A DNA stretch of 37,331 bases from Myxococcaceae bacterium. GTDB lineage: Bacteria; Myxococcota; Myxococcia; Myxococcales; Myxococcaceae. The position numbers were made by a program, and so were the translations under genes. Shown here one piece after another: positions 1 to 18,815 of this stretch; positions within the stretch are counted from its first letter, which is position 1, and each line of letters starts with the position of its first letter. Below the pieces are notes generated by a model. That model ran no database searches. It was not told the origin of the DNA and saw only the letters and a program-made list of their open reading frames with translations. The DNA lies in the NCBI GenBank assembly GCA_022842905.1, contig JALHOS010000022.1, positions 1 to 37,331 of the forward strand. The letters are read 5' to 3'.

Positions 1-248
1 CCTTCGTGCGCCAGGTGGCCCGCGCGCACGGAGGTGAGGTGACGATCCGCTCCGCGCCGGGCCAAGGGACGGCGGTGCGCGTCGGCGTCCCGGCGCGCGT
101 GGCGGGTCGCGGGGTGAGCTCGAAGAGACCGGCTGAGCTCGGGTGGCGCGTCGCCGGCCGGCAGGACGGGACCCAGCAGCGCCTGCAGCCAGACGCCCCG
201 GTCAGCGATCGAGCCACGCCCGAAACGCCGCGGCGCTCTCCTGACTGA
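1..248 (+). CDS. C-terminal fragment of a sensor histidine kinase
   Basis: The reading frame is open from the left window edge, so only the end of the gene is seen. The first 30 or so residues match the end of a HATPase_c domain: a hydrophobic stretch, an AHGG turn, then the G2-type motif APGQGTAVRVGVP. This is typical of the ATP-binding domain of histidine kinases. About 50 further residues follow, rich in Arg, Pro and Gly, with no recognisable domain, up to the TGA at 246-248. The last 47 bases overlap the 3' end of the convergent response regulator gene. The long tail is odd. In a neighbouring frame a TGA at 113-115 would end the protein right after the kinase domain, so a frameshift or sequencing error is possible. 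The sensor part is outside the window. Confidence 0.7.
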   Translation, partial: FVRQVARAHGGEVTIRSAPGQGTAVRVGVPARVAGRGVSSKRPAELGWRVAGRQDGTQQRLQPDAPVSDRATPETPRRSPD

Positions 249-939
249 CCAGCACCCGCTCCGACGGCTCTGGCCGGAGCTGCACCTCCAGCCGCCCGCG
301 GCCGCCGCTCCTGAAGCCGACCACCGCCGACACCTGCGCCAGGAAGCCACGACCGAGCCGAAAGAACCGCGCGCCGAGCTCACCTTCGAGCTGCCCGAGC
401 GTTCGGTCGACGACGTACTCCGCGCCGTCCGTCGTCACGCAGAGGGTCAGCTTGTCGTCAGCGCGAAAGAACGCCACGTCGCGCACCGCCAGCGCCTTCA
501 CGCCGCCCTTGTGTCGCACGAGCACACGCTCCCGCGGGGTCGGCCCGACGAGCGCCCGGGCCTCGGCCCACTTGGCGCCGAAGTGCTCGGCCAGCCGCTC
601 GACCTTCGAGAGCGCGCGCTCGAACGCTTGGAGGTCCACCGGCTTGAGCAGGTAGTCCACGCTCAGGTGCTCCAGCGCCTGCAACACGTAGCCGTCGTAC
701 GCGGTGATGAAGACGACGGGCGCCCGCACGGGCTGCGCTTCGAACAGGCTCAGCGCGTCGCCGTCGCTCAAGCGAATGTCTGCCAGCACCAGGTCCGGCG
801 TCGCCCGGTCGAAGTACGCGCGCGCCTCCGCCACCGTCTCGAGCTCGGCGTCGACGGTCCAGCTCGGCCGCAATTGAGCGAGCAGCCGGACCACCTGCCG
901 CCGCGCCGGGGCTTCGTCTTCGAGGAGCGCGATTCTCAC
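202..939 (-). CDS. LytTR-family response regulator
   Basis: This 245-residue protein has an N-terminal receiver domain (about residues 1-120) and a C-terminal LytTR DNA-binding domain (about 140-243). In the receiver, the acidic pair is E7/D8, the likely phosphorylated residue is D54 in LVLADIRLSDG, the conserved Thr lies in FITAYD, and the Lys in the YLLKPVD motif. The C-terminal part has the LytTR pattern, with RVLVRHKGGVKALAVRDVAFF near its start and RVLVSQESAAAF near its end. The start is GTG at 939, which overlaps the stop of the upstream kinase gene as GTGA, implying translational coupling. The kinase next to it is the LytS/YehU type, the usual partner of such regulators. It would bind promoter DNA as a phosphorylated dimer; targets cannot be read from the sequence. 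Confidence 0.93.
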   Translation of the reverse strand: MRIALLEDEAPARRQVVRLLAQLRPSWTVDAELETVAEARAYFDRATPDLVLADIRLSDGDALSLFEAQPVRAPVVFITAYDGYVLQALEHLSVDYLLKPVDLQAFERALSKVERLAEHFGAKWAEARALVGPTPRERVLVRHKGGVKALAVRDVAFFRADDKLTLCVTTDGAEYVVDRTLGQLEGELGARFFRLGRGFLAQVSAVVGFRSGGRGRLEVQLRPEPSERVLVSQESAAAFRAWLDR

Positions 940-1985
940 GGCACCCTCGCCTCCACCAAGGGCACGCGCACCGTGAACGCGCCGCCGGCGGCACGGACTT
1001 CGAGCGCGCCTGCGCCGCAGCGCTCGAGCCGCTCCGCCAGGTTCTTCAGCCCCGTCCCCGTCCCCGCGCTGTCAGCTTTCGGCCGGTGCGGGTGGCTGAC
1101 GATCACCGCGTCGGGCTCGACCCGAACGGTCACCTCGAGCGGCTCCTTCGTCGACAGCCGGTTGTGCGCCAGCGCGTTCTCGAGCAGCAGCTGCACGGCG
1201 GTCGGAGGAAGTACCTTCCCGCGCGCGGCCTCCACGACGCTCGGGAGCTCCACCTGCAGCGCGGCCCCGTAGCGCAGGATCAGCAGCTCGGCGTAGCGGC
1301 CGGCGAAGGTGAGCTCGTCTTCCAGCGTCACGACCTGTCGATCGGCGGTGTCGAGGAGGTAGCGGAGCATGGCCGCCAAGCTCTGGTTGAAGCGCAAGGC
1401 CCGCGGGACGTCCTCCGCCATGAGCGCCTGCAGCGTGTTGAGGCAGTTGAAGAGAAAGTGCGGGTCGACCTGGCGCCGCAGCGCGAGCAGCTCGCTCTCG
1501 ACTTGCGCGCGCTGAGCTTGCACGAGGCGCAGCGCGTCTGCCTGCCGCGCCTTGAGGAGCAGCACCGTCTCGTAGACGTGGGCGACGAACACCACGCAGA
1601 TGACGTTCATGAGGGTCACGGCTCGGACCGCGCTCCAATCGACGGCCTGCGCGAGCCCCAACCGAAACCAGGCGACCAGGACCACGGCCGTCACCGGGAC
1701 CGTGAAGAGCACCACCCCCGCGACGAGCCGGAGCACCCGGCGCCACGGCCGCTCGAGCCAGTCGAAGCGCGAGGCCGTGGTGAACAGGAGCGCCCGGTTC
1801 CCGTGCCAAAGCGCAGCGGCGAGGCTCACGAAGACGAGCTGGCCCGCCCACCACCTCGGGCTCGACCAGGGCAGCGAGCCGTAGAGGCCAAAGAGCAGTG
1901 GAATGCCGACGCCGAACGCGGGAATGCCCAGCGCGCGCGCGAGGCGGTCGTCGACCGACGGGCTGAGCTCGTGCGCAGGTGCCAC
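936..1985 (-). CDS. LytS/YehU-type sensor histidine kinase
   Basis: This integral membrane kinase probably phosphorylates the LytTR regulator encoded directly downstream. After the start come several hydrophobic segments (from ALGIPAFGVGIPLLFGLYG through LMNVICVVFVAHVYETVLLL), then a short coiled-coil-like linker. The His_kinase domain (PF06580 type) follows, with the H-box RRQVDPHFLFNCLNTLQAL, and then a HATPase region with LLLENALAHN and GTGTGLKNLAERL. The start is uncertain. The frame is open to a GTG at 2201 that has a GGAGGTG about 11 bases upstream, but the first 70 or so residues from there are Arg-rich and unlike the family. In-frame GTG codons at 2027, 2009 and 1985 fit the domain better; I chose 1985 because the protein-like part begins just after it. 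Its stop overlaps the regulator's start. Confidence 0.85.
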   Translation of the reverse strand: MAPAHELSPSVDDRLARALGIPAFGVGIPLLFGLYGSLPWSSPRWWAGQLVFVSLAAALWHGNRALLFTTASRFDWLERPWRRVLRLVAGVVLFTVPVTAVVLVAWFRLGLAQAVDWSAVRAVTLMNVICVVFVAHVYETVLLLKARQADALRLVQAQRAQVESELLALRRQVDPHFLFNCLNTLQALMAEDVPRALRFNQSLAAMLRYLLDTADRQVVTLEDELTFAGRYAELLILRYGAALQVELPSVVEAARGKVLPPTAVQLLLENALAHNRLSTKEPLEVTVRVEPDAVIVSHPHRPKADSAGTGTGLKNLAERLERCGAGALEVRAAGGAFTVRVPLVEARVP

Positions 1986-2149
1986 GGGACGCCGCGATGA
2001 CACAGGAGCACGGTCCGCGACAAGCACCCGGGCGCGGTCCGGCGTCGGCCTCGCGGAGCGGCGCCAAACAGCAGCCGGGGTGAGCACGCACCGGTCACCG
2101 CTCGAGGCCGCGGCCCCCCGCCCCTCTCGAGCGGGACGTCGCTGCCCAC

Positions 2150-2298
2150 GCCTCGCGTGCCTTTCGACGTCGTCGGGCGGGTCGACCCACAGGCTCAGCA
2201 CGGGCTCGAGCGCACCTCCACCGCCGGAGCACCTCGGTTGCGAAGAGGTCGGGGGCGTTGTTCGAGCGGCCGAGCACCTTCACTTGCTCGAAGGTCAT
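2150..2298 (-). pseudogene. Possible frameshifted gene remnant
   Basis: On the minus strand an ATG at 2298 opens a frame whose first 28 codons have the high third-position GC typical of real genes here and encode a protein-like start (MTFEQVKVLGRSNNAPDLF). After about position 2215 that frame becomes Arg-rich and loses the bias. The frame one base away then shows the bias and gives protein-like residues (GGGALEPVLSLWVDPPDDVE) down to about 2150. This is what a single indel in a short gene would give. I do not recognise the product. It could instead be chance in GC-rich DNA, or the second half could be the genuine N-terminus of the kinase starting at GTG 2201. Confidence 0.3.
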
Positions 2299-4381: not shown

Positions 4382-5038
4382 GTGCTCCTCTTCCAGAAGC
4401 GCTTTCACCAAGGCTTGGTCGACGGCAGCGTGACGCTCACCTTCCGCGCCTGGGCGACGCCGCGCGTCAAGGTCGGCGGGCGCTACCGCGTGCACCCCAT
4501 CGGCGTCGTTCAGGTGGACGACGTGCGCCCGGTGCGTCTGGGAGACGTGACGGAGGCCGACGCGCTGGCCGCGGGCTTCACGTCCCTCGCCGAGATGTGG
4601 GCGTACGTGCAGCCGGTGGTGGCGAAGAAGCTCAGCGCCCAGACGCCGCTGTTCCGAGTCGCGCTGCACCACGGCGGCGACGGCGACCGCGTCGAAGGGG
4701 CGCTGGACGACCGACTGACCGCCGACGACGTGGCGACGCTGCGGGTGAAGCTGGCATCGCTCGACGCGCGCGCCGACGAGCCGTGGACCTTCGAAGTCCT
4801 CCGCCTCATCGCCAAGCGCCCGCGCGTCGCGGCCTCACAGCTGGCCAAGCGCCTGGGCCGCCCGACGCTGCCCTTCAAGGTCGACGTCCGAAAGCTCAAG
4901 CGCCTGGGGCTGACCCAGTCCTTCGAGGTCGGCTACGAGCTGTCGCCCAAAGGCCGCGCGTTCCTCAGCCTGGCCAAGCGCCGCGTGAAGGCAAGAGCGA
5001 CGTCACGGAAGGCTCGCCCGCGTGCCGGCGGGAAGTGA
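4382..5038 (+). CDS. ASCH-like domain protein with winged-helix-like C-terminus
   Basis: This protein has 218 residues from a GTG at 4382. The N-terminal 65 or so residues (VLLFQKRFHQGLVDGSVTLT, then a basic RYRVHPIG strand and a DVTEADALAAGF helix) resemble the PUA-like ASCH fold, which binds RNA or nucleotides. A linker of about 70 residues follows. The C-terminal 80 or so residues look like a winged helix: a helix in FEVLRLIAKRP, the helix-turn-helix-like VAASQLAKRLGRP, then KVDVRKLKRLGLTQSFEVGYELSPKGRAFL and a very basic tail. No catalytic residues are obvious. The frame is open upstream to an ATG at 4355 that overlaps the pyk start, but homology begins at the GTG. The last 36 bases overlap the convergent SprT-like gene. 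The function is unknown; a regulatory nucleic-acid-binding role is an inference. Confidence 0.7.
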   Translation: MLLFQKRFHQGLVDGSVTLTFRAWATPRVKVGGRYRVHPIGVVQVDDVRPVRLGDVTEADALAAGFTSLAEMWAYVQPVVAKKLSAQTPLFRVALHHGGDGDRVEGALDDRLTADDVATLRVKLASLDARADEPWTFEVLRLIAKRPRVAASQLAKRLGRPTLPFKVDVRKLKRLGLTQSFEVGYELSPKGRAFLSLAKRRVKARATSRKARPRAGGK

Positions 5039-5887
5039 GCCGGCGAGCAGCTGCTTGAGGTGCTCCTTCTCCCAGCGCATGGCCGCGTCGTAGTGCGGGA
5101 ACGCCCGCTCGCGATCGCGGAAGGCCTTGGGGTGGTGCACGTGGCGCCCGGAATGTCGGTCCGACGGGAAGAGCTGGTGCAGCATCTCGTGGAAGACGAT
5201 GAACTCGACGAAGAAGCGCGGCACGTCGGGGGAGTCGAGCACCGGGTGCAGGCGAATCTCCCGCTGCTTGTGGTCGTACACGCCCAAGCGAATCGACTTC
5301 TTGCGCCGCTTGCCCGCGTTCCGGCCCCAGCCAATGCGCGCGCGAATGCCACCCTGAAACAGGCGGTCGTTGAGGTCGTCGAAGAGCTCCTGCAGGTCGA
5401 ACGAGCGGCCCCGCGGCTTGGGCACCTGGCCCCGCGTGGGCCGGCTGCGAATGTGCGCCTGGTTCCGCGCGATGAAGTCGTCGATCGCCGCGCCCGCGGC
5501 CTTGCGGCCGTGCCCCGCATAGTCCGCCAGCGCGACGACGACGTCCGGCGGGGCGGACAGGAACATGTGGTGGAGGCGCACGTGCAGCAGCGGCGGCGCG
5601 CGCCGAAAGCTGACCATGGTGGAACGGTTGTCGTGGAGCTTGAGGCTCACGCGGACCGTCGGCCCCAGGTGGTTGGCCAGCTGCTGCGCCAAGGCCTGAG
5701 CGCCGCGCAGGGCCACGTCTCGGGAGGGGGCGACGCTGGTGTCGGGCGCCGGGTCTTCGGACGCGACCTCATCGGGCACGACGTCGGGTGAAGCGTCGTC
5801 GGGTGAAACACTGGCCGGCGCGGCCGCGGCCCGGTCCGAGCGCTGCGGCTGACGAAACAGGTCGAGCTGGCGGGGCGCGAGCTGCAC
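5003..5887 (-). CDS. SprT-like zinc metallopeptidase domain protein
   Basis: This 294-residue protein from GTG 5887 carries the SprT-like pattern. The zinc-binding motif HEMLH lies at residues 233-237 within FVEFIVFHEMLHQLF, and a likely third His ligand is in the following HVHHPKAFRDRERAF. Upstream blocks LQELFDDLNDRLFQGGIRAR, IGWGRN and SIRLGVYDHKQREIRLHPVL match the domain. Residues 15-55 are low-complexity (Ala, Pro, Asp, Ser) and probably disordered. SprT-like enzymes include the DNA-protein crosslink protease SPRTN, but many bacterial members are uncharacterised. No signal peptide is seen, so it is probably cytoplasmic. The frame is open further upstream into the antisense of the Met-zincin gene; GTG 5887 is preferred because protein-like composition begins there and a GCAGGAC lies about 8 bases before it. 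Confidence 0.8.
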   Translation of the reverse strand: MQLAPRQLDLFRQPQRSDRAAAAPASVSPDDASPDVVPDEVASEDPAPDTSVAPSRDVALRGAQALAQQLANHLGPTVRVSLKLHDNRSTMVSFRRAPPLLHVRLHHMFLSAPPDVVVALADYAGHGRKAAGAAIDDFIARNQAHIRSRPTRGQVPKPRGRSFDLQELFDDLNDRLFQGGIRARIGWGRNAGKRRKKSIRLGVYDHKQREIRLHPVLDSPDVPRFFVEFIVFHEMLHQLFPSDRHSGRHVHHPKAFRDRERAFPHYDAAMRWEKEHLKQLLAGSLPAGTRASLP

Positions 5888-5934
5888 GGGCGAAGGTCCT
5901 GCTTCTACCTCAAGTCCGTCGCGCCAAACACGAC

Positions 5935-5966
5935 GCCCCCGAGCTCCGGTGTGGGAGCCCGAGGGC
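5935..5966 (-). terminator. Hairpin after the Met-zincin operon
   Basis: On the minus strand, 26 bases after the stop of the second Met-zincin gene, a 13-base arm (5966-5954) can pair fully with the arm at 5947-5935 around a 6-base loop. Eleven pairs are Watson-Crick and two are G-U. The G-U pairs work only in the minus-strand RNA, which fits a terminator of that operon. The following sequence has only three consecutive Ts, so intrinsic termination would be weak. Confidence 0.55.
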
Positions 5967-5991
5967 GCGGTACGGCAGTCGGACGAAGGTG

Positions 5992-8900
5992 TTACCGGCC
6001 GAAGATGTTGTAGAGGCCGCGCATCATCTCGAGCAGGCGAATCGTCTCGCGCAGCTCGGCTTCCCAGCCCTTGAACGTCTTGTTGTCGACTGAGGTGGTC
6101 GCGACGCGGTTGGCGCAGGAGCTGTCGGTGCAGCACTCGAGCCCACCACGGAAGTTCACGACCTGACCGGGCGACGGGCAGGCGTTGCCCATCTTCGCGC
6201 GAATGCTGTTGGCGCGCGCCACGGTGTACGGACCGGCCGGCGGGTTGGTGTCCCCCGTGATCTGCAGCGCCGAGTAGATGTAGCCGCCGCCGTACGGGTC
6301 CGCGAACTGCACCACGTCGAAGCCAGGCTCCGGCGTGACGGCGTCCCCCGACCCGAGCCGGAACACCTTGTTGAAGTTCGCGAACTCCATGTTGTAGTTC
6401 TCGGTGAAGAACGCCATCGACCAGACCTGAGCCTGGAAGCGGAGGCTCCACGACGGCGTCGAGAGCACCTTCTCCATGGCCAGCGGGCTGCCGCTGGAGT
6501 CGACCGGCGTGGGCGCCGGCGGCGGGTAGTTGAAGTCCGAGATGTAGTTCTGCGCCTGGACGAAGATCGGCTTCTCGATCATCGCCGTGCCGTCCGGGAG
6601 CTTGGCCAGCTTCGACGCGTAGTACGTGTCGTTGCGGGTCCAGAACGCGTTGAACAGCGGCGCGAGCTCGCGGTTGAACGTCATGTAGTAGGGGATCGAG
6701 TAGCGCAGCGCGTCGGAGCCGCGGTCGACACCGATGAAGTTCGTGTCGCTCGTCATCAGCGCGAACACCGCGGCGATGCCGTCCCAGAAGTGCCCCGTCT
6801 CGTTGATACGGCTGAAGCTGTCGTAGCCGAACGTGTCGTACACGGAGAACGTCGAGCGGCCCGGGCCACGCGGCACGTAGACGACGTCGGAGTACGCCAC
6901 CCCGCCGTCCTGCGGTGAGCGCAGGCTGGAGATCAACGTCGCCTCTTCCGCCGCCGGACGACGTCGGTTCTGCGCGTCACCCGTGGGCACGTACTCCCAG
7001 ATGCCGTCCGAGCGACGCCCGTGGTAGCCGACGTTCGGCACCGACAGCTGCTCCATCAGCAGGTTGACGGAGTCGACCACGGCCATCGTGAAGTAGTTCT
7101 GCCAGATGGGGTCGCCGAAGCCGTAGTACCTGTCGAGATCTTCCTGGCTGATGCGCGTGCCCAGGAACAGCTGGTACGCCCGGTTCAGGCTGTAGATGTT
7201 GAACAGCCAGTGGTGGTACACGTTGGGCACGTTGGCCAGGTAGCGGCCGAACTTGCTGTTCACGACGCCGATCGGCGAGTAGTTGATTCGGTCGCGGCGG
7301 AAGTTGGCGAAGATGTACGACTGGTTGAAGCGCTCCAGCCACTTCGTCGTCATTTCGTAGACGTCCGCGCCCTGGTCCTGGCGGTTGCACATCATGTTCG
7401 CGCCGACCTCGGAGTCCGAGCAGAAGTTGTACGGCACTTCCACCGGCATGCGACGGTTCAGGCCCTTCTCCGTGAAGATCGGCTCGGCCAGCTTCAGCAC
7501 CACCTTGGCCTTCGTGTACTCGTCTTCTTCGAAGTACCGCGCCGACAGGTTGTAGTCCTTCAGCGCGACGGCCAGCGCGTCGTAGTACTGCTGCATTTCG
7601 CTCCACTTGCGGAACGAGCGGTCCTTCATGCGGGCAATGCCCTGGTCGAGCGCCGCCGCGAAGTTCGGGTTCGGGTCCGCGAAGTGGAAGGGCAGCGTCG
7701 TGTAGTGGAACTTGTCCGTGTAGAACGCAGACACCGGCGTGTAGTGCTCGAGCGTCGCCATGGGCAGCTCGGTGTGAACGCCGCGCACCGTGAACACCTT
7801 GGCCGTGTTGTCGACCGGCACGGTGATGTTCGGGTTCTGGTAGTCGGTGCGGGTGTTGTTGAACACTTCCACCCAGCCCAGCTCCGGGCCACCGGCGTAC
7901 GCGAAGAGGATCGCCGCCTCGTCGTACTTGCCGATGCCCTTGTTCTGCGCGGTGACGCGAGCGCCGTAGTCCATGATCGACGAGTACGTGTACTCGTACA
8001 GGCCTTCGTCGATCTGCTTCTGGCTCTGCCTCGACGCGTCCATCATGTTCTGCGGGGTGACGGGCAGCACGCGCTGACCGCCGACGGTGACGCCGATGGT
8101 CTCCTTGCGCAGATCCCAGTAGCCGTCCTGGTAGTTGAGCGCGTCGGCCGAGGCGATGAAGTTGTGCCGCAGACCGAGCGTGTGGCCGATCTCGTGCTCG
8201 GTCACGCTGCGGTACGCCTCACGCCGGAGCTCGTCGTAGACCTCCGACTTCGCCAGGCGCTTGGCTTCGGCGTCGTTGCAGCTGTTGCGGTTCGAGCAGG
8301 TCGGCGCGCCCTGGGCCTTCAGCTTGGTGAACACCGAGTCGTAGAGCGCCTTCTTGCGCTTGGCGACGCCAATGTAGTCCTCGTCGCTGTACTCGAACTC
8401 GTACAGGCAGCCGACCTTCGCGTCGGAGCGCTGCTTGAACTTCTGCCGCGCCTTCTCGATCGGGTCGTCGCCAAACATGACGTTGAGCGCGACCTGCTTG
8501 TAGAAGTTGCTGTCGCTGTTGAGGCGCGCCAGGAACCCCTGGTGCGTGGTCATGGTCATGACCGCCTTGCGCACTTCGTCCAGGCCCACCAGCTCAGCCT
8601 CGAGCTCCGGATTCTGCTCGATGAGGCGCTTGACGACTTCCTTGCGGTTCTCCTTGGCGATCGGCGGGCGGCCGTTGGCGACCCAGCCGTTGATCAGCGT
8701 CTCGAGGCGGCCACGCGGGCGCGCGAACGAGGACATGGGCTGCTGCGGCGCCGACGTCAGCTGGCTGGACGAGCTGGCCGTCGCCGAGCGGCGCGGGTCC
8801 GTGGGGTTCAGGTTGGCGAAGACGTAGTTCTTCGCGTCGCGGCCGAGGACCAGGTCTTCGATCGTCACGTCGCCGTTGAGGTACTCCATGACCTGCAGCG

Positions 8901-10404
8901 AGCTGCCGGCCCACGTGTCCAGTCCAGGGCCGTAGATGTTGGCCGCGGCGCTGACGACCATGCCGTTCTCGGGGTCCACGAAGGACGGGCCGAGGCCGAG
9001 CAGGCCACCCGAGTTCTGCTCCACGTAGGGGATCATGTTGTACCGAATGTCGCCCATGCGCGCGTAGGTGCCAGGCTTGCCACACTCGGCGGGGTCGCCC
9101 GCCTGTACCGGGTTGCGGCAGACGAAGAACATCTGCGGGACTTCGTTGGTGCCGGCTGGCTTCTCGTACTCGTAACGAACCGGCGCCTCGATGCCGCGGG
9201 GCACCGCGATCGCGCGGCGGTACGCGTGATCCCACGAAGACTCGACGGTCTGGAACGGATCGCGGCCGGCCTTCTTCGCCTCGCGCATGGAGGTGATGGG
9301 CATGATCCACGACGGGGTCTGCGCGTCGAGGTAATACACGATCGGCTTGAGCGGCCGGTTCTCGACAGGCATCGACTTGAGCGTGGGCTCACCGAGCGCG
9401 TTGAGCACCGTGTTACCCTGGGCGTCCTTCACGATGTCCTTGGCCTTGCCCCAGATGTTGTGGCGCATGGCGAAGAGCTGCCGGCCGGACTCGGTGTAGT
9501 AGTAGTCCTTGGTGTAGCTGTACGCCTCGGCCCGGAAGTAGCCGAACTTGACCATGGCCTTCTCGGAGTAGGTCAGCGGCTCGTAGTCACGCATCACCTC
9601 GTCGTCGACGCGCAGCACCGACGTCCGGACCTTCACGTCCACGCTCTCGCAGTCGAACTGCGAATTGAAGAAGCAGTACGGCAGGTTGCCGTAGCCCGGG
9701 TAGTAGATGGAGGGTGGATCGGCGATCTTCTGCACGGTGAAGTCGAAGTAGCGAAGCCCCTTGTCGTCACGCTCGAAGACCATGGCCTGATCCATGGCGC
9801 GCTGGTCCTGGTCCGTCACGAAGTGCGTCTTCGTGTTCGGGCCAATGCACTGGTACTCCCAGGTCAGCGCGCTCACGTTGCAGCCAGACGCGTTCTGAAC
9901 GGCGCCCTGGTGCCAGTTGACGCGCATGAACTCACGCTCGTACCAGGGCCGGTCCATCGAATCCTCGACCAGGACGTTCATCTGCTCGCCCGTGGCGGGG
10001 TTGTAAAGCCGCTGCCGATCGAAGTGGCTCACGATCGGGTACGCAATGACAACGTTCCCCTTGTACTGCTTGCCGTCGATGCGCAGCACCTTGCCAATGC
10101 GTGACTTTGCGCGGTCGACACTCGGGTCCGCCCCCGGGTTGATCTCGTACGCGCGGTACGCGACGAGCAGATTCTCCTGAACCTCCCAGACGATCTTGTC
10201 TTCGATGCCCCAGAACCCAGGCGTCGCGACCGTCGGCGTCTTCGGCGCGTCGACGATCGTCTCCCTGATGTACCACTGGCCCTTCAGCAGGTCCGACTTC
10301 TTCATGTAGTTCGGCTGCGTCCGGTCGATCAGCTCAGGCTGGCCACAACCCGCGACGGCCAGCATCGCGGCAGCGGCCAAGACCCATTGGTTCAAGTGCT
10401 TCAT
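5992..10404 (-). CDS. Met-zincin family metalloprotease lipoprotein (second of two paralogs)
   Basis: A predicted secreted lipoprotein of 1470 residues. The N-terminus (MKHLNQW, a hydrophobic run, then AVAGCGQ) is a lipoprotein signal with the acylated Cys at about residue 20. After the leader comes a region shared with the upstream paralog (QPNYMKKSDLLKGQWYIRET). The catalytic motif HEIGHTLGLRHNF starts at H737 and gives the zinc ligands of an HExxHxxGxxH metzincin. The Met-turn is SSIMDYG near residue 808. This is the DUF4953 (PF16313) 'zinc-dependent metalloprotease' pattern. A Cys pair lies in FCSDSEVGANMMCNRQDQG, and two further Cys are near the C-terminus. ATG 10404 is chosen because GGAG lies 8 bases upstream and the signal peptide starts there; an ATG at 10440 would add 12 residues. 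It is last in an operon and followed by a hairpin. The substrate is unknown. Confidence 0.85.
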   Translation of the reverse strand: MKHLNQWVLAAAAMLAVAGCGQPELIDRTQPNYMKKSDLLKGQWYIRETIVDAPKTPTVATPGFWGIEDKIVWEVQENLLVAYRAYEINPGADPSVDRAKSRIGKVLRIDGKQYKGNVVIAYPIVSHFDRQRLYNPATGEQMNVLVEDSMDRPWYEREFMRVNWHQGAVQNASGCNVSALTWEYQCIGPNTKTHFVTDQDQRAMDQAMVFERDDKGLRYFDFTVQKIADPPSIYYPGYGNLPYCFFNSQFDCESVDVKVRTSVLRVDDEVMRDYEPLTYSEKAMVKFGYFRAEAYSYTKDYYYTESGRQLFAMRHNIWGKAKDIVKDAQGNTVLNALGEPTLKSMPVENRPLKPIVYYLDAQTPSWIMPITSMREAKKAGRDPFQTVESSWDHAYRRAIAVPRGIEAPVRYEYEKPAGTNEVPQMFFVCRNPVQAGDPAECGKPGTYARMGDIRYNMIPYVEQNSGGLLGLGPSFVDPENGMVVSAAANIYGPGLDTWAGSSLQVMEYLNGDVTIEDLVLGRDAKNYVFANLNPTDPRRSATASSSSQLTSAPQQPMSSFARPRGRLETLINGWVANGRPPIAKENRKEVVKRLIEQNPELEAELVGLDEVRKAVMTMTTHQGFLARLNSDSNFYKQVALNVMFGDDPIEKARQKFKQRSDAKVGCLYEFEYSDEDYIGVAKRKKALYDSVFTKLKAQGAPTCSNRNSCNDAEAKRLAKSEVYDELRREAYRSVTEHEIGHTLGLRHNFIASADALNYQDGYWDLRKETIGVTVGGQRVLPVTPQNMMDASRQSQKQIDEGLYEYTYSSIMDYGARVTAQNKGIGKYDEAAILFAYAGGPELGWVEVFNNTRTDYQNPNITVPVDNTAKVFTVRGVHTELPMATLEHYTPVSAFYTDKFHYTTLPFHFADPNPNFAAALDQGIARMKDRSFRKWSEMQQYYDALAVALKDYNLSARYFEEDEYTKAKVVLKLAEPIFTEKGLNRRMPVEVPYNFCSDSEVGANMMCNRQDQGADVYEMTTKWLERFNQSYIFANFRRDRINYSPIGVVNSKFGRYLANVPNVYHHWLFNIYSLNRAYQLFLGTRISQEDLDRYYGFGDPIWQNYFTMAVVDSVNLLMEQLSVPNVGYHGRRSDGIWEYVPTGDAQNRRRPAAEEATLISSLRSPQDGGVAYSDVVYVPRGPGRSTFSVYDTFGYDSFSRINETGHFWDGIAAVFALMTSDTNFIGVDRGSDALRYSIPYYMTFNRELAPLFNAFWTRNDTYYASKLAKLPDGTAMIEKPIFVQAQNYISDFNYPPPAPTPVDSSGSPLAMEKVLSTPSWSLRFQAQVWSMAFFTENYNMEFANFNKVFRLGSGDAVTPEPGFDVVQFADPYGGGYIYSALQITGDTNPPAGPYTVARANSIRAKMGNACPSPGQVVNFRGGLECCTDSSCANRVATTSVDNKTFKGWEAELRETIRLLEMMRGLYNIFGR

Positions 10405-10442
10405 GGTGGTGGCTCCGTTCATTTCGCGAAGGGTCGTCATGG

Positions 10443-13400
10443 TCAGAACGCCGACCCGAAGGCCATGTAGAAGTTACGCATCAGGTCCAGGTCGCGCACC
10501 GAGTCTTGGTACAGCTCGGTCCACATGCGGCGCCGCGTCTCGACGACGTTCGCGTTGGTCGCGTCGACGTCGCGCATGCAGCGGTACCCTTCCTGCTCGA
10601 GGTACCGAGGCAGCGGGCAGGTCGCCGGGTTGCGCACCATGGTCAGGTACGACTGGCCAATGGTGAGCATGCGCACCGCCGGAGTCGAGTCCACCGGGGC
10701 TCCGTCACGCTCGATCGCCACGTAGCGCGACCCGTTGACGATGTCTGGCATTTCCACGGCGTGGTAGCCGGGCGCCACGTTGAAGCCCTCCGACGAGCCC
10801 AGCTTGAAGATCTGATTGCTCTTCGAGTAGTCCAAGTCGTAGTTCACGCGGAACAGAGCCATGCCCAGCCACAGCGCGTAGATGCGGGCCGTCCAGGTGA
10901 TGGAGATGTTCACCGGCGCCAGGTTCTGCGACGTGCGGATGCAGTCCGGGCCGCCGGGGCACTGCGTGGGCGGCGCCTTCGGGTAGTCGAAGTTGGCGTA
11001 CAGGTCCGACCCGGAGATGAACCGCCGCTGCGCCAGCACCGGCCGCGACGTGATCGCCCCCGTGTTGTCCGTGGCCTTGTAGAGCTGCGGGCGAACCTTG
11101 TCTTCGTCGTCAGACCAGAGCGAGCCGAAGTTGGCTTGGAACTCGGGGCGGAACACCTGGTAGTAGGAAATGTTGTACCGGTTCCAGTCGGCGTCCTGGT
11201 CCGTGCCCTGAATGTCGATGCCGGGGATGACGGCCGCGAACATGGCGCCGAGCTGGTCGTTGTAGTGGCCGGCCTCCGACATGCGGCTGAAGAAGCCGTA
11301 GCCAGACTTGAAGTCGTAGCGGCTGTACATGCGCCGACCCATGCCGCGCGGCACCATCATGAACGCGCGTGCGCCACGGTTCTCGGTGAAGAACTCCTCG
11401 AGGCGCCGACGGCCCTGCTCGGTCAACTCGTCGAAGTCCTCACCGTCGGCGATCTGATCCCACTGCGGCCCGGTGGTGATGTTGCGCAGGTAGAACAGGC
11501 CGAACTCCGGCACCGCCATGACGTTGAGCTGGTTGTTGACGCCGTCCAGCACCGCCATGGTCCAGTAGTCCTGGATCAGCGGGTCGATCTTGAAGTTGTT
11601 CGAGATCTCCTGCGAGCGCTCCGCCTGCTTGTACTGGCGGAAGACCCAGTGCTTGTAGACGTTGGCCACCGTGTAGAACGAGCTGAACGTGCTGTTCACC
11701 GCCGTGTTGCCGCTGAACCAGGCGCGGTCCCGACGGAAGTGCGTGTCGTAGTAGTACGCCCAGTAGTCCTCGAGCTCCGTGCGGACCTTCTCGTAGTAGT
11801 CGGGGCCGCGGTCGAAGCGGTAGCACGACAGCACCGGGCCGTCGGCCGACTCGTCAGAGCAGAACATATACGGCACGCGCATGAGCTTGCCCTGCGTCAC
11901 CGCAGCCAGCCGCGCCGGGTCGTCGGGCAGCGTGGGGTCCGCTTCGAGCGCGTCGCGAATCTGCTGCTCCTGCGCCCGGACTTCGGTCCACTTCGCCAGG
12001 CGACGGTTCGAATCCTTCAGCCGCTCCACGCCGCTGTTGATGACCGCGGTGATGTCGCTGCCTTCGCCGAAGTGCAGGGGCACCGTCGTGTAGTGGAAGC
12101 GCTCGGTGTAGTTGTAGATGAGCGGGGTCGTCGCCGTGGCGTTCACCATGGGCAGGTCGACCGCGGCGCCGGTGATCGTCATCTGACGGCCGTCCGTGCC
12201 GTTGAACCGCTCGGTCGTGGCGCGCGCGTTGCGGAACACTTCGACATAGCCCGGGTTCGTGTCACCCGAGTACGCGAAGACGATCGCCGCTTCGTCGTAC
12301 TTGCCCAGGCCGGTCCAATCGCCGTTGCGCTTGCCGTGGTAGTCCATGATCGACGACGACTCGTAGTCGTGCATCTTGCCCAGGCGCTGACCTTCGGTGC
12401 CCTCGGCGGCGATCTTCAGGTCCGCCGGCGTGCGCGGGATCTTCCGTTCGTTGTTCTGCACCACGGTGATGGTGCTCTTCTTCAGCTGCCAGTACTCGTC
12501 GTCGTAGTTCACGGCGTCGAACGAGCCCGCGAAGTTGTGCCGCAGGTTCACCGTGTGACCGACCTCGTGGATCGTCGTGGCCAGCCACATCTGCTGGCGG
12601 AACTTGCGCGCGACGCGGTCGTAGATCGGCTGCTTCCAGCGCATGCACTCCTGGCGGTCCGTCGCGGGGATCTGCAGGCCCGCGTCGCTGATGGCGATCG
12701 TGCCGGCGTCGGTCAGCACGTACTCCGGCAGGTCGGTGATCTTCCGCTGGCACTTCGCCGGCGCACCCGCCTTGACCAGCTCCTCGTTGATGAAGTTCAC
12801 CTGCTCGTTCGCCAGACCAATCATGGTGCGGTCGGTGAACTCAGACATCATCACGCAGTGCTTGGACAGCTCGCTCAGGCGGAACTTCTGGTAGGCGGCG
12901 TTCTTGGTGAAGTCCGTCAGCACGGACCGCGACGCCTGCCGGCGGAACGTGGGGTCCGCCTCGGCGCGCGCACGCACGCCCGCGGGCAGCAGGTTCACCA
13001 GGTCGTGCTGCACTTCCGGGTTGTCGAGGATCTGCGCTTCGAGGTCCGGGAACTTCGCCAGGTGGTCCGCCGCCGCCTTGAGGTGGTTGCGGTTGCTGGC
13101 CGTGCTCGCGCTCGGCGAGAACGCCTTGGTCTGCACGAACTGCTGCATCAGCCCCTGCATGCGGGCCGTCGGCCGGTCCCAGGCGCCGACCGTCTCTTCC
13201 GGCACCTGCGGAACGCCCTGCAGCGACGACGTCAGCTCGCTCTCCTTGCGGGCCAGCGCGACGTTGTAGATGGGGTTGTTGGCGATGAAGGTCCGCATGT
13301 CGTCGCCGCTGATGTAGTTGGGGATCGTCTTGTCGCCGTTGAGCAGCATGACGTGGTCCACCAGCTGGCGGCCGATCATGTCGACGCCCCAGGTGTACGT

Positions 13401-14831
13401 GTTGGAGTTACCGGAGATGAGCATGCCGGTCTCCGGGTCCGCGGACGACGGGCCGTAGCCCAGCAGGCCGTTGGCCGTCGGCTCGGCGATGGTGTTGATG
13501 AAGCTGTAGCGCAGGTCGCCGAACTTCGGCGAGAAGCCAGGCGCGCCGCAGGCCGCGGGGTCACCCTGCTTCACCGGGTTGTTGCAGACGATGAACATGG
13601 AATCGACCTGGCGCCAATCCTTGTCACCACCCTGCGCCGCGGCGATCGCGCGACGGAACGCCTTGTCGTAGTTCGGCTGCAGCGTCTCCATGGTCGGTTC
13701 CCAGAACTCCTGGTAGCGGTCTTCGCCGCCCATGCGATCGGGGCGCGTGAAGTAGTACACGATCGGCTTGGGCTTACGCGCCGACATGGCGATCGGCTGC
13801 GCGTAGTTCGGCTCGCCCGCGGTGTCCTTCTGGTAGTACTCCTCCCAGACGCGGAAGCGGTTGGCGAGGAGGATGCGGGCCGACTCCAGCGGACCAAAGC
13901 GGCGGTCGTAGTTCAGACGCTCCACGCGGAAGTACCCGAACATGGACATCAGGTCGTTGCCGTAGAGCAGCGGCTCGTAGTCCCGCGTGTACTTCTCGTC
14001 GATCTTCGAGATCGAAATACGCATCTTGATCTGCGACGAGGCACAGTCGACGCCGTAGGTCAGCAGGCACAGCGGGACGTTGCCGAAGCCCTCCCAGTAG
14101 TACACGTCGGGGTTCGCCATGTACCGACCAGTCACGTCGAAGTACTTCAGCTTGCCCTTGTCGTCGTACTCGAAGGTCGGCCAGTCGTAGCTGTCTTCGC
14201 CCTTCTCGTTCGGCTGAATCCAGTTCGACGCCGACGAGCCTCCGCTCGGGTTCTGCACCGTGCCCCAGTTCAGGCCCGACGCCTTGTTCAGCTCGTTCAT
14301 GGACCAGTTCACGCGAATGTATTCGCGCTGGTTCCACGGGCGGTCAGACATGTTCTCGCTGACCACGTTGCTCTGCTCACCCGTGGCAGGGTTGTACTCG
14401 CGCTGAATGTCGAAGTGCGCGGTGATGGGGAAGGCCACGACCGGCGAGCCGAAGTACTTCTGGCCGCCCACGCAGCTGCCCTTCGCGTCGCAGTACGTCG
14501 CCGTCGTGCCCGACACCTTCGACGTGGAGTCGACGTTCGACTCGGCGCCCGGCGTAAACGAATACGCGCGGTACCCGACCAACATGCCCTGCTGGATTTC
14601 CCACACCAGCTTCTCCATGTTGCCCGTCTGGCCCGGGAACGTGAACATGGTGTTGTGCGGCGTGTGCGTGACGGTGTTCCGGAAGTACCACTGGCCGTCG
14701 AGCAGGTCCGACTTGCGCACCACGTTCGGCTGAACGCGGTTGACGTCACCGACGCTCTGCGCGCAGCCAGCCGCCAAGACGACCGCGGCGAGCGCGCCCA
14801 GCAGGCGGCTGTTGGTTTGGGGGTGGTGCAT
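10443..14831 (-). CDS. Met-zincin family metalloprotease lipoprotein (first of two paralogs)
   Basis: A predicted secreted lipoprotein of 1462 residues, paralogous to its downstream neighbour. The leader MHHPQTNSRLLGALAAVVL ends in LAAGC, so the acylated Cys is about residue 23. The shared N-terminal block reads QPNVVRKSDLLDGQWYFRNT. The zinc site is HEVGHTVNLRHNF from H755, where N replaces the G seen at the same place in the paralog, and the Met-turn is SSIMDYH. The later Cys-containing block is FCSDESADGPVLSCYRFDRG. The two proteins are similar in layout but diverged. GGAGG stands four bases before ATG 14831, which settles the start. The gene follows the beta-barrel gene by 67 bases and precedes the second paralog by 38 bases, consistent with one transcript. 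It probably acts at the outer membrane or cell surface; whether it degrades protein, and which, cannot be told. Confidence 0.85.
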   Translation of the reverse strand: MHHPQTNSRLLGALAAVVLAAGCAQSVGDVNRVQPNVVRKSDLLDGQWYFRNTVTHTPHNTMFTFPGQTGNMEKLVWEIQQGMLVGYRAYSFTPGAESNVDSTSKVSGTTATYCDAKGSCVGGQKYFGSPVVAFPITAHFDIQREYNPATGEQSNVVSENMSDRPWNQREYIRVNWSMNELNKASGLNWGTVQNPSGGSSASNWIQPNEKGEDSYDWPTFEYDDKGKLKYFDVTGRYMANPDVYYWEGFGNVPLCLLTYGVDCASSQIKMRISISKIDEKYTRDYEPLLYGNDLMSMFGYFRVERLNYDRRFGPLESARILLANRFRVWEEYYQKDTAGEPNYAQPIAMSARKPKPIVYYFTRPDRMGGEDRYQEFWEPTMETLQPNYDKAFRRAIAAAQGGDKDWRQVDSMFIVCNNPVKQGDPAACGAPGFSPKFGDLRYSFINTIAEPTANGLLGYGPSSADPETGMLISGNSNTYTWGVDMIGRQLVDHVMLLNGDKTIPNYISGDDMRTFIANNPIYNVALARKESELTSSLQGVPQVPEETVGAWDRPTARMQGLMQQFVQTKAFSPSASTASNRNHLKAAADHLAKFPDLEAQILDNPEVQHDLVNLLPAGVRARAEADPTFRRQASRSVLTDFTKNAAYQKFRLSELSKHCVMMSEFTDRTMIGLANEQVNFINEELVKAGAPAKCQRKITDLPEYVLTDAGTIAISDAGLQIPATDRQECMRWKQPIYDRVARKFRQQMWLATTIHEVGHTVNLRHNFAGSFDAVNYDDEYWQLKKSTITVVQNNERKIPRTPADLKIAAEGTEGQRLGKMHDYESSSIMDYHGKRNGDWTGLGKYDEAAIVFAYSGDTNPGYVEVFRNARATTERFNGTDGRQMTITGAAVDLPMVNATATTPLIYNYTERFHYTTVPLHFGEGSDITAVINSGVERLKDSNRRLAKWTEVRAQEQQIRDALEADPTLPDDPARLAAVTQGKLMRVPYMFCSDESADGPVLSCYRFDRGPDYYEKVRTELEDYWAYYYDTHFRRDRAWFSGNTAVNSTFSSFYTVANVYKHWVFRQYKQAERSQEISNNFKIDPLIQDYWTMAVLDGVNNQLNVMAVPEFGLFYLRNITTGPQWDQIADGEDFDELTEQGRRRLEEFFTENRGARAFMMVPRGMGRRMYSRYDFKSGYGFFSRMSEAGHYNDQLGAMFAAVIPGIDIQGTDQDADWNRYNISYYQVFRPEFQANFGSLWSDDEDKVRPQLYKATDNTGAITSRPVLAQRRFISGSDLYANFDYPKAPPTQCPGGPDCIRTSQNLAPVNISITWTARIYALWLGMALFRVNYDLDYSKSNQIFKLGSSEGFNVAPGYHAVEMPDIVNGSRYVAIERDGAPVDSTPAVRMLTIGQSYLTMVRNPATCPLPRYLEQEGYRCMRDVDATNANVVETRRRMWTELYQDSVRDLDLMRNFYMAFGSAF

Positions 14832-14898
14832 GATGCCTCCGGAAGGGAACTGCGATGAAGCGGTGTGAAGAGTTGTCGTCACGCGTCTGTCCTCGAAA

Positions 14899-16086
14899 TC
14901 AATACGCAGCAGTCAGCGTGAAGTACACACTGGTCGAGTTGTCAGCCCACGTTCCAAACGAGAGGAACGGGAACTTCGGCACCCACGCTCCATTCACGTT
15001 CATGAGCGGCGTGGTGAAGTTGGAGATGCCCAGGTCGATCGAGTAGTGGTCGTTGAACTGATAGGACCCACCGAAGAAGGCCGAGAACATGTCAAAGGAC
15101 CCGCCCCCGGTGCGTGCGACGGGCTGACCGGCAGAGTCGATGCCTTTGGGCGTAAAGTCGTCTGGACGCGACGGGTCGCCCTGCGCCGCATAGCGCCAGA
15201 AGCGCAGGTACGTGTAGCCGGCGTACAGCATGAACGCGTCGGTCACGCGCGCCTGCACCGAGCCGCCCACGGTGACGGTCCACTGGTTGTTGTTGCCGAT
15301 AATGGAAGCGAAGTTCTCGCCGGGGCGGGAGAGGAGCGTCGGGATCCCATCCACCGGCCGGGGGATCGCGTTCGACCGCGTCCCGATCACGGTCTGGGTG
15401 ACGAAGGTGTGCATGGCCGACGCTCGGACCTGGAGGTCGAAGCGGCTGACGCGCGTCGACATGGCCGCGCCCGCCGAGAGGCCGGCGATCATGCCGTTGT
15501 TGAGGCTCTGGTACGACGTGGGCAGGGTGAGGCCGATGTTGGGTGAGACGGCGAGGCCGGAGAAGGGCCCGAACGCCTTGGTTCGGAAGAACGCCGGCGC
15601 GACCAGCACCGCACGGGTGTCGAACGGCTGCACCCGCCGCGCGTTGTTATTGTCTGGCATCGTGTACTCGAACAGCAGCCGACCAATGAGGCTCGCGGCC
15701 AGCCGCCGGCCCCCGAGCCCAAACAGATACGTCGCCTGCACGCTCAAGTTCGCGGCAAGGTAGGAATACAGCGTCGGGTCGACGAAGGTCCCCGCCCCCA
15801 GCCAGTGGTCCAAGCTGGCGATCATCTGGAAGCCGGACTGGTTGGCCTGCTCTTCGGGCGTACGCGCTTGAACGGCGCTCGCGAGGCCGCCCTTCTTCTC
15901 GCCGGCCTTCGCCTTGTCGTCGGCCTTCGCGGTCGTCGTCCCGGCAGGCGCTGGCGTCGCGTTGGGTGCGGGGGCCGGCGTCGTCGTCTGAGCGACGGAA
16001 TCAACCTTCGCCGCCGGCGTTGAAGGCTGCGCCAGCGCCAGCGCCGGCACCAACACCGCCGTCATGCAGAATGAGACCGTCTTCAC
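14899..16086 (-). CDS. Outer-membrane beta-barrel protein
   Basis: This is a 395-residue exported protein. From GTG 16086 it begins VKTVSFCMTAVLVPALALAQ, a classic Sec signal peptide cleaved after ALAQ or just before. Next comes a low-complexity Pro/Ala/Thr linker (about residues 22-70). About 300 residues of alternating aromatic/hydrophobic and polar positions follow, with many short Gly/Asn turns, typical of transmembrane beta strands. The last residues VYFTLTAAY end in an aromatic residue, as recognised by the BAM complex. The family is not recognised. A perfect GGAGGT four bases before GTG 16086 decides the start. It is first in the apparent operon with two Met-zincin lipoproteins, so it may anchor, export or work with them at the outer membrane (inference). 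Confidence 0.8.
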   Translation of the reverse strand: MKTVSFCMTAVLVPALALAQPSTPAAKVDSVAQTTTPAPAPNATPAPAGTTTAKADDKAKAGEKKGGLASAVQARTPEEQANQSGFQMIASLDHWLGAGTFVDPTLYSYLAANLSVQATYLFGLGGRRLAASLIGRLLFEYTMPDNNNARRVQPFDTRAVLVAPAFFRTKAFGPFSGLAVSPNIGLTLPTSYQSLNNGMIAGLSAGAAMSTRVSRFDLQVRASAMHTFVTQTVIGTRSNAIPRPVDGIPTLLSRPGENFASIIGNNNQWTVTVGGSVQARVTDAFMLYAGYTYLRFWRYAAQGDPSRPDDFTPKGIDSAGQPVARTGGGSFDMFSAFFGGSYQFNDHYSIDLGISNFTTPLMNVNGAWVPKFPFLSFGTWADNSTSVYFTLTAAY

Positions 16087-16353: not shown

Positions 16354-17751
16354 TCAACGCACGTCTGGCGCAGCGCCCTCGGCGCGAAGCAGCCGGGTCA
16401 GCCGGGCCGGCTCGACGCGCAAAACCAGAGTCTTTTCATGCGTGTACGTCACCGCACCGGGACCCGCACCCTTTGCCTTCCGGACGTGCTTGGCGAGCAC
16501 GTAGCTCACCTCGACCTTGGTCTCGCCCTTCGCGTCGGAGTGGTGGGCGGCCAGGTGGGCGGCGTCGAGCAGCACTTCCGTCGGGGCCGCTTGGCCTTTG
16601 GGCAGCGGGATCACCACGTGAGCCCCGGGCACCCCGCGCGCGTGGAGCCAGAGATGGTGCGGGGCGGCGGCGTGGAAGGTGAGCTCGTCGTTCGAAGCGG
16701 CGCCTCGGCCGACCCAAATCGGCTGCCCGTGTCGGCTGGGGTACACGCGGTAGGGCCGGCGTTCGGGTGGATCAGCCGGGCGAGCGGCGCGCGGGCCGAC
16801 GGCGGGCGATCCCTCAGCGTTGGCCGGCGCCTCGAGCTGCGCGTCGAGCGCCAGCAGCTCCTGTTCGAGCTGGGCGATGCGGGCGCCGGCCAGCTGAGCG
16901 CCGCGCAGGAGCCGGCGGTACTGGTGGAACTTGCGCGCGAGGTTCTCCTGCGGGCTCTTCGCCGGGTCGAGCGGGATGGTGCGCTGCTGCTCTCCCGCTT
17001 CGGTCCACTCGCTGACGCTCACACTCTTCGCGCCGCGCTGCACCCGGCTCAAGTTTTGCGCGAGCAGCTCCCCTTCCACGCGCAGCCGGTCGGCGTCGAG
17101 CGCGCGCGCGGCGTCGGCCTTCACCTTGTCGATGGTGCGCAGCAGCTGCTTCTTGCGACGCAACAGCGGGGCGGCCTGCTGCTCCCGCCACTGCCGCGCT
17201 TCCTTGTCCCCAAACAGCGCCTCGGCGCCGTGGAGCAGCCGCAGGTGCACGTGGTCCGACGCCAGCCTCGAGCCCTGCGGCCGCTCGTCGACGGCGGGCG
17301 GCGCAGTCCATTCCCCGCCGAAGCGCAGGCCCCGCGGCAGCGGCAGCGACGCGGTGAGGATTCGGCGGTTTGCGCCGATGAGGAAGACCGCTGGGGTGCC
17401 CGCTTCGAGCAGCAGCGTCAGCGTCCGGTCCTTCACGTCCCACCGAGTGGCCAGCGCCCGAAGCCCGGGCAGGACCTCGGCGCCGACCAACTTCGCGCCG
17501 GTCAGCTCTCGACGAAGCACCGCTTGCCAGGCCGGCGGGTTCGGCGGGTTGGGTGGGCGCTTGTCGACGACGCCCAGGCGCGCCAGCTCGGGGTCCGCGC
17601 ACACGTGGAGCGTGACGGTGCGGCCGGGCACGCGCACGTCCAAGAAGCACCGGCTGGCCGTGGGCGCGGCGACCTTCTGCACCACCCCGCCCGCCAGCTC
17701 ACGCGAGAGCTCTTGGGCGAGAGCGGTCAGCTCGACGGTGCGCAGCGACAT
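16354..17751 (-). CDS. NFACT family protein (RqcH/FbpA-like), short form
   Basis: This 465-residue protein resembles RqcH/Rqc2/NEMF, which in ribosome quality control bind stalled 50S-peptidyl-tRNA complexes and, in many bacteria, recruit tRNA-Ala to tail the nascent chain. Residues 1-200 match NFACT-N. About 210-330 are Arg/Gln/Leu-rich and helical (coiled coil). The C-terminal 110 residues are the NFACT-R domain, with YPSRHGQPIWVGRGAASNDE, HHLWLHARGVPGAHVVIP and ETKVEVSYVLAKHVRKAKGA. It is shorter than typical RqcH (about 570). At the site of the conserved Asp-Arg pair the sequence reads GLRAL (residues 96-100), so both residues appear replaced. The start ATG 17751 gives MSLRTVELTALAQEL, which fits the family. 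It follows the DNA ligase gene by 17 bases. Confidence 0.85.
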   Translation of the reverse strand: MSLRTVELTALAQELSRELAGGVVQKVAAPTASRCFLDVRVPGRTVTLHVCADPELARLGVVDKRPPNPPNPPAWQAVLRRELTGAKLVGAEVLPGLRALATRWDVKDRTLTLLLEAGTPAVFLIGANRRILTASLPLPRGLRFGGEWTAPPAVDERPQGSRLASDHVHLRLLHGAEALFGDKEARQWREQQAAPLLRRKKQLLRTIDKVKADAARALDADRLRVEGELLAQNLSRVQRGAKSVSVSEWTEAGEQQRTIPLDPAKSPQENLARKFHQYRRLLRGAQLAGARIAQLEQELLALDAQLEAPANAEGSPAVGPRAARPADPPERRPYRVYPSRHGQPIWVGRGAASNDELTFHAAAPHHLWLHARGVPGAHVVIPLPKGQAAPTEVLLDAAHLAAHHSDAKGETKVEVSYVLAKHVRKAKGAGPGAVTYTHEKTLVLRVEPARLTRLLRAEGAAPDVR

Positions 17752-17768
17752 GGCTCTTCTTGTTCCCT

Positions 17769-18815
17769 TCAGCGGGGCAGCGCGCGAATGGCGTCGAGGG
17801 AGAACGGGTTGGGCGGCAGCAGCTGGCCGTAGGTGCACGCGGTCGGCGGCTTGTCTTCCCGCCAGCGAATGAAGGTGGCGCCGTGGCGAAAGCGGTCACC
17901 CTGGAGGTAGTCGAAGTACACCTCGCAGACCAACGTGGGCGGCAGGCGGGTCCACGGCTGCTCCTTGCCGCTGCTCCACCGGCTGGGAGCGCCCGGCGTG
18001 CGGCCTTCACCGAAGGACGGCGCTTCGGCGGGGGCGACCTCGGCCAGGGGCGACAGCCGCTCGAAGAGGGCCTTCTTCTCCTTCGCGGTGAAGGACGACG
18101 TGTGGCCGACGTGGTGCAACACGCCCGCGTCGTCGTAGAGCCCCAGCAGCAGCGCGCCCACGGAGCCCTTGGTCTTCCCTTCGCGAAAGCCGCCGACGAC
18201 ACAGTCCGCGGTGCGGCGGTGCTTCACCTTGACCATGACGCGCTTGCCCGACGAGTACGGCAGCTCTTCCCGACGGGCCATGACGCCGTCGCAGCCGGCG
18301 CCTTCGAAGTCTTCGAACCACGCCTTGGCCACGGAAGGGTCGCTCGTCTGCGGGGTGACGAAGACGCGCTCGGACTCGCGCACGCACCGCAAGAGCTCTT
18401 CGCGTCGCAGCAACCCTGGACGCTCACGCCAGTCGTCGTCGCCCACGGCCAACAAATCGAACGCCACGAAGCTCGCGGGGATCTCCTGCGCGAGGCGGTT
18501 GACGCGGGACGCGGCGGGGTGAAGCCGCAGCTGGAGCCCGTCGAAGTCCAGGCCCTTCTCGCCCACGCGAATGATCTCCCCGTCGACGATGATCCGCTCA
18601 GGGAGCGCCTCTTTGAGCGCCTGAACGACCTCCGGAAAGTAGCGGGCGAGCGGCTGGCCGCTGCGGCTCTGCAGCTCGACGGACTCGCCGTCGCGGAAGA
18701 CGAGCGCGCGGAAGCCGTCCCACTTCGGCTCGTAGCGCCAGCCTGGGCCCTGCGGAATGTCGTCGGCGGCCTCGGCGAGCATGGGCTCGAGCGGTGGAGC
18801 GAAGGGCAGCGGCAT
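17769..18815 (-). CDS. ATP-dependent DNA ligase (LigC/LigD-ligase-like)
   Basis: This 348-residue enzyme seals nicks in DNA using ATP. The adenylation domain has motif I EPKWDGFRAL with the nucleotidyl Lys at residue 31, motif III-like FVAFDLLAV, motif IV GCDGVMARREELPY and motif V VMVKVKHRRTADCVVGGF. The OB-fold domain follows, with GALLLGLYDDAGVLHHVGH, and ends with RFRHGATFIRWREDKPP. There is no primase or nuclease domain, so it is a stand-alone ligase rather than a full LigD. ATG 18815 starts the family-like MPLPFAPPLEPMLAE. An upstream GTG at 18857 would add 14 unlikely residues. The gene is first in a two-gene unit with the NFACT gene. No Ku gene is nearby. A role in repair ligation is likely from the family. 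Confidence 0.92.
   Translation of the reverse strand: MPLPFAPPLEPMLAEAADDIPQGPGWRYEPKWDGFRALVFRDGESVELQSRSGQPLARYFPEVVQALKEALPERIIVDGEIIRVGEKGLDFDGLQLRLHPAASRVNRLAQEIPASFVAFDLLAVGDDDWRERPGLLRREELLRCVRESERVFVTPQTSDPSVAKAWFEDFEGAGCDGVMARREELPYSSGKRVMVKVKHRRTADCVVGGFREGKTKGSVGALLLGLYDDAGVLHHVGHTSSFTAKEKKALFERLSPLAEVAPAEAPSFGEGRTPGAPSRWSSGKEQPWTRLPPTLVCEVYFDYLQGDRFRHGATFIRWREDKPPTACTYGQLLPPNPFSLDAIRALPR

Follow-up and report, generated by a model that had tools for sequence, protein, structure and literature searches.

The window, that is, the whole stretch of DNA analysed here, is a contig of 37,331 bases from a Myxococcaceae genome of 7.85 Mb and 98.9% completeness. Three genes follow one another on its minus strand. 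OMP (14899..16086) encodes a 395-aa protein predicted to be a secreted 12-strand beta-barrel, with a signal peptide, a Pro/Ala-rich linker, a conserved helix and the barrel itself. ZA (10443..14831) and ZB (5992..10404) encode the first and second protease, lipoprotein Met-zincins of 1462 and 1470 aa, respectively. Gaps of 67 bases (OMP/ZA) and 38 bases (ZA/ZB) separate the genes, and a GGAG-type ribosome site is seen in the sequence before each start. These coordinates agree with an earlier note on this DNA, which had described a barrel and two large lipoproteins at the same spacings; the terminal aromatic residue that it ascribed to the barrel is also present, as OMP ends in ...TLTAAY.

The three-gene cassette is bordered on the same strand by two genes which mark a conserved insertion site and lie outside the unit. 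Upstream is the NFACT gene (16354..17838, minus strand; PF05833, 117 bits), recognised also by synteny, and downstream is the SprT-like gene (5003..5913, minus strand), whose PF10263 score of 23.5 bits is just below the cut-off of 25.6. The SprT-like gene lies directly 3′ of the cassette, carries its own HExxH (FHEMLHQLF) and is found at the site with or without the cassette. It was ruled out as a fourth operon member, as it adjoins the NFACT gene in all eight cassette-free genomes tested. A long stable hairpin (5908..5990, minus strand) starts at the ZB stop codon, at the end of the unit, where the earlier note had put it. Its folding energy is −54.5 kcal/mol with a z-score of −5.2, which was equalled by none of 200 shuffles. 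This hairpin has no T run and is therefore not a canonical intrinsic terminator. Scans for OMP, ZA and ZB found neither a T-run terminator-like site nor a sigma-70 promoter. Long open reading frames antisense to ZA (10506-14858, plus strand, 1450 codons) and ZB (7021-10104, plus strand, 1027 codons) were rejected as genes, since the third-position G+C of 0.93 in the ZA and ZB sense frames favours the sense strand and makes the antisense frames by-products of G+C-rich codon use. Elsewhere in the window (202-2201, minus strand) lies a two-component pair whose members resemble a response regulator of the LytTR type and a histidine kinase like LytS; no link to the cassette was seen.

The active sites of both proteases were located by alignment with relatives. 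An HExxHxxGxxH zinc site had been claimed for each. This is exact for ZB (HEIGHTLGLRHNF, 8158..8196, minus strand; HEIGHTLGLRH), whereas ZA carries an HExxHxxNxxH variant (HEVGHTVNLRHNF, 12531..12569, minus strand; HEVGHTVNLRH) in which the glycine is replaced by asparagine. Nevertheless, the zinc ligands and the glutamate of ZA are intact. The same replacement was observed in 10 of 34 first tandem copies, and the deeper-branching first copies retain glycine. The predicted SIMDY Met-turn was confirmed as SSIMDY in both ZA (12339..12356, minus strand) and ZB (7966..7983, minus strand). Across relatives, HExxHxxxxxH is retained in 116 of 117 zincin copies, and a Met-turn of the form M-D/E-Y/F was found in 114 of 116. 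The ligands are kept in all 34 first and all 34 second tandem copies, so that neither position is a pseudoprotease, and this candidate was rejected for all 68. The sole zincin of the 117 without HExxH (L129, 5129-9247, minus strand) also has no OMP found beside it.

Over their length ZA and ZB share 32% identity, and the source genome has no third zincin gene of this kind. The earlier note's view of them as diverged paralogs holds well, and both have been retained with intact zinc ligands. The PF16313 profile, which the same note had put forward, scored 41.9 bits for ZB, above the cut-off of 24.2, and 24.2 bits for ZA, equal to it; all 28 relatives scanned were matched at E 1 or better. The N-terminal profile DUF5117 (PF17148) matched two of the 28 relatives (best E 4e-4) and neither ZA nor ZB. 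A structure model of ZA residues 24-1210 had a mean pLDDT of 46, and a Foldseek search with it gave nothing useful.

Both proteases would be lipidated near the N-terminus. The lipobox of ZA is LAAGC (14763..14777, minus strand), with lipidated Cys23 invariant in 28 relatives, and that of ZB is VAGC (10345..10356, minus strand), with lipidated Cys20 in the same invariant column. In Myxococcus xanthus lipoproteins, lysine at +2 marks the inner membrane and alanine at +7 the matrix (PMC3222651). Neither is present in ZA (C-A-Q-S-V-G-D from the lipobox cysteine) or ZB (C-G-Q-P-E-L-I), and among 102 zincin lipoboxes lysine at +2 occurs in none and alanine at +7 in three. By the M. xanthus rules, therefore, ZA and ZB are predicted from their N-terminal sorting residues to be retained at the outer membrane. 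The positions invariant in the 28 relatives include the lipobox cysteine, the zinc ligands, the Met-turn, C263 and C428, and three cysteine pairs are conserved in the zincins (255/263, 416/428 and 991/1003 in ZA numbering).

The barrel fold of OMP is a prediction from an AlphaFold2 model of middling confidence (pLDDT 60.6), in which a disordered linker of Pro and Ala and then a conserved helix precede the 12 strands. This helical segment, residues 66-83 (LASAVQARTPEEQANQSG, 15838..15891, minus strand), lies just before the first strand, is near-identical in nine orthologs and is modelled as two helices (67-73 and 77-81). The closest solved folds are a COG4313 channel (Z 19.4 over 237 residues, 8% identity) and FapF (Z 19.1). 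A search of the OMP sequence against the PDB gave no match to the COG4313 or FapF structures, and a Pfam scan of 20 OMP relatives gave no convincing match to a named channel family. FapF, from the functional amyloid operon of Pseudomonas that also encodes the protease FapD, is a 12-strand barrel with an N-terminal linker and a helical plug (PMC5557850). By analogy with FapF, residues 66-83 might serve as a plug. The barrel of one tandem locus (L115, 256-1842, plus strand) starts with a LysM domain (E 3.9e-10), which points to anchoring in peptidoglycan; the N-terminus of OMP is therefore probably periplasmic.

Among family relatives (records titled Myxococcaceae, Archangium or Myxococcus), the order NFACT, OMP, ZA, ZB, a gene of about 300 aa and pyruvate kinase recurs, and the 300-aa gene was identified as SprT-like by tblastn in L042, L043, L048, L049 and L061. 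A survey of gene order in relatives had been suggested, and the three genes are indeed conserved together; the outcome that the earlier note had named as a refutation, their separation in relatives, did not arise. In more distant relatives there is a single zincin of 1270-1830 aa. The gene upstream of it is beyond the reach of BLAST; comparison of profiles places it in the OMP family, with a probability of 98.9-99.5%. Two checks addressed the circularity of this detection. Among 39 loci held out of the profile, OMP adjoins the zincin in 29, with no match elsewhere in any locus, and in a control, unrelated genes from 18 loci reached at most 47% probability, against at least 98% for the OMPs. 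Overall, OMP lies directly upstream in 57 of the 75 zincin clusters with contig room, including 25 of 29 tandem clusters.

The arrangement is not rigid. OMP is downstream, divergent or inverted in L116, L128, L144 and L052. In one genus the proteases are in place in two genomes, with OMP inverted beside ZA in one (L052, 6790-7932, minus strand) and on another contig in the second (L053, upstream of 7724; OMP at G054:C41:14798-15922). A strict operon structure is thus not essential. Further genes accompany some of these loci. In the other tandem lineage a small cysteine-rich protein with a CRRGCDACC-like motif follows the proteases (L113, 3400-4508; L114, 214-1406; L141, 11537-12169; L116, 15045-15665), and L113 and L114 also have a protein of 160-180 aa with a hydrophobic stretch; both are possible extra members of that lineage's version. 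In one family, at three loci (L062, 16171-17760; L063, 6536-8134; L064, 10984-12546) a conserved, cytosolic-looking protein of 520-530 aa, which we take to be a putative GH57-like enzyme, replaces OMP beside a long zincin of 1675-1830 aa.

The association between barrel and protease extends over the phylum, with many uncultured myxobacteria among its carriers. In 156 Myxococcota genomes with completeness of at least 90%, the zincin profile had a strong match in 55 and the OMP profile in 54; other matches to the zincin profile were short and, as shown for ten genomes, fell on the active-site helix of other metalloproteases. OMP was found in 54 of the 55 zincin genomes and in none of the other 101, so that no genome has OMP alone. 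The one exception is G031, where the zincin contig is broken inside ZA (L060). Three genomes (G009, G021 and G035) each carry three zincin loci and as many OMPs, one to a locus, and in three others (G054, G065 and G070) some zincin loci have no adjacent OMP and OMP is found elsewhere in the genome. Barrel and protease distances are correlated (r 0.72), whereas swapping barrels within genomes gave a mean of 0.37, with none of 5000 swaps as high. As block duplication would also yield such a correlation, the swap result establishes cognate pairing by descent rather than contact. Taken together, adjacency and co-occurrence across the phylum uphold the pairing of OMP with proteases that the earlier note had proposed from one locus. 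Plasmid spread of the zincins was also considered and rejected; it was represented by one weak match, to an M66 protease.

Within the family, first and second proteases fall into two groups that are sister to each other and mirror each other's branching; the proteases of other Myxococcota make up a further pair of this sort. AU tests on 22 rows reject a single clade of all first copies (p 1.35e-5) and of all second copies (p 3.1e-6). On this phylogenetic evidence (AU p about 1e-5 or less) the second protease would have arisen at least twice, early gene conversion being the alternative. In that alternative, which concerns the evolutionary point alone, one ancient duplication was followed by gene conversion within lineages that mimics two doublings. 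The same order and sizes do recur in both tandem groups, and tandem copies are known to undergo conversion. We nevertheless hold it improbable in view of both AU results and of a single-copy locus from another order (L135), in which the NFACT gene, OMP, one zincin and the SprT-like gene follow one another and the zincin branches just outside the family's pair. A locus from another family of the same order (L066) has the same arrangement.

The cassette is missing from one part of the family. In eight of eight large-genome members tested, the NFACT gene lies beside those for the SprT-like protein and pyruvate kinase, and the site of the cassette is empty. In a tree of these three flanking proteins the eight genomes form one nested clade (support 100/99) with carriers around it, and monophyly of the carriers received a marginal p of 0.042. 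Read most simply, an OMP-zincin pair was ancestral at this site, the zincin doubled in the family, and the large-genome clade lost the cassette once. From genome size we infer that the classical predatory and fruiting genera of the laboratory belong to this clade. Predation had been among the roles suggested for the cassette; a core predatory role is unsupported because the site is empty in the large-genome branch.

The picture that emerges is of OMP, ZA and ZB as a cognate outer-membrane proteolysis unit whose barrel serves only its own proteases, and we consider this probable. ZA and ZB would be two catalytically competent zinc endopeptidases held at the outer membrane by an N-terminal lipid tether. 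OMP would be their dedicated partner, a predicted 12-strand barrel which most likely mounts them on the outer membrane or displays them through it and possibly offers a peptide route as well. Such a unit is in keeping with strict pairing and a single barrel at each locus, with the lipid anchor and with the intact active sites, and mounting or display is favoured because a general peptide pore would need no private copy per protease. The genomic side of this argument comes from sequence comparison: co-occurrence, adjacency, one barrel per locus and co-divergence for the pairing; conserved zinc ligands, lipobox and cysteine pairs for the proteases; and separate doublings, the single-protease outgroup locus and the empty site in one clade for the history. 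The proteins presumably form a physical complex exposed at the cell surface, and the substrates would be extracellular or envelope proteins. More tentatively, and with somewhat less than even confidence, we extend this to a hitherto undescribed, phylum-wide outer-membrane machine. In it a private 12-strand barrel would mount or display giant active metalloproteases, one or two to a barrel; some genomes would run several such pairs in parallel, the second protease would have been invented twice independently, and the branch of the laboratory myxobacteria would have lost the machine.

The same parts could instead digest and import. The proteases would cut extracellular proteins and the barrel would be a passive peptide channel to the periplasm, following a SusCD-like logic without a TonB-coupled transporter. 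In its favour, the closest fold, a COG4313 channel, comes from a family with a suggested role in taking up hydrophobic molecules (PMC4493636), and each barrel has two proteases with apparently intact active sites. We still find it unlikely on balance, since a general pore needs neither its own copy per protease locus nor co-divergence, and the conserved pre-barrel helix suggests gating rather than an open pore. Export in the manner of the Fap system would make the barrel a gated route for an unfolded polypeptide, with this polypeptide or the channel itself processed by the lipoprotein proteases. Such a reading would draw on FapF as the second-best fold (Z 19.1), on its similar arrangement of a linker, a helical plug and 12 strands, and on FapD, a required protease encoded in the same operon as FapF (PMC5557850). 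It is distinctly improbable, as no conserved third gene that might be the substrate was seen between the NFACT and SprT-like genes, the 1460-aa zincins have no relation to FapD, a small cysteine protease, and no sequence relation to FapF was found. Mere neighbourhood, with barrel and proteases inherited as a linked block and acting independently, would by itself give co-divergence and co-occurrence, yet it is very improbable indeed given that G054, G065 and G070 keep OMP elsewhere when it is not adjacent and that none of the 156 genomes keeps OMP alone.

Returning to the preferred reading of a cognate outer-membrane unit, neither the class of the protease nor the shape of the barrel is new. 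In open-access papers we found no description of the pairing, the phylum-wide co-occurrence, the separate doublings or the clean loss. No open-access paper was found that names DUF4953 or DUF5117 or that joins Myxococcota with a zinc-dependent metalloprotease, and the Met-zincin papers there concern other proteins. Near-perfect co-occurrence across the phylum turns joint function into a directly testable claim. The separate doublings behind one barrel allow a comparison of one- and two-protease versions, which could ask whether the machine acts as a dimer. That the large-genome branch has apparently lost the unit would explain how it escaped notice.

Among known families, the zincins share with PF16313 (DUF4953) the HExxH...H zinc helix, followed by HNF and the MDY Met-turn. 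The match covers only some 20-35 of the 316 profile positions, those near the active site, and the zincins here are lipoproteins of 1270-1830 aa, paired with a barrel, with N-terminal and long C-terminal regions that have no Pfam name and, in ZA, asparagine for glycine in the motif. Their relation to DUF5117 (PF17148) is weak. The COG4313 channels (PMC4493636) are the best structural match to OMP (Z 19.4), but identity is 8%, OMP is tied to proteases and its 20 relatives are without a named Pfam channel match. FapF and FapD resemble the cassette in the 12-strand barrel fold, the N-terminal linker with a pre-barrel helix and the protease encoded alongside. They differ in that FapD is a small C39 protease and the proteases here are giant lipoprotein zincins, with no sequence relation found; no amyloid genes were recognised in the window. 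No TonB-receptor, plug, SusD or Slam domain was matched by Pfam at E 1 in OMP, ZA, ZB, 20 OMP relatives or 28 zincin relatives. In SusC/SusD and in Slam with its surface lipoproteins, a barrel has its own lipoprotein partner and the pair is repeated per locus. The cassette follows the same pairing logic at each locus, but its barrel has 12 strands and the partner is a giant protease with an intact active site. It would thus be a new addition to the few known outer-membrane systems of barrel and lipoprotein, one whose partner is a giant protease.
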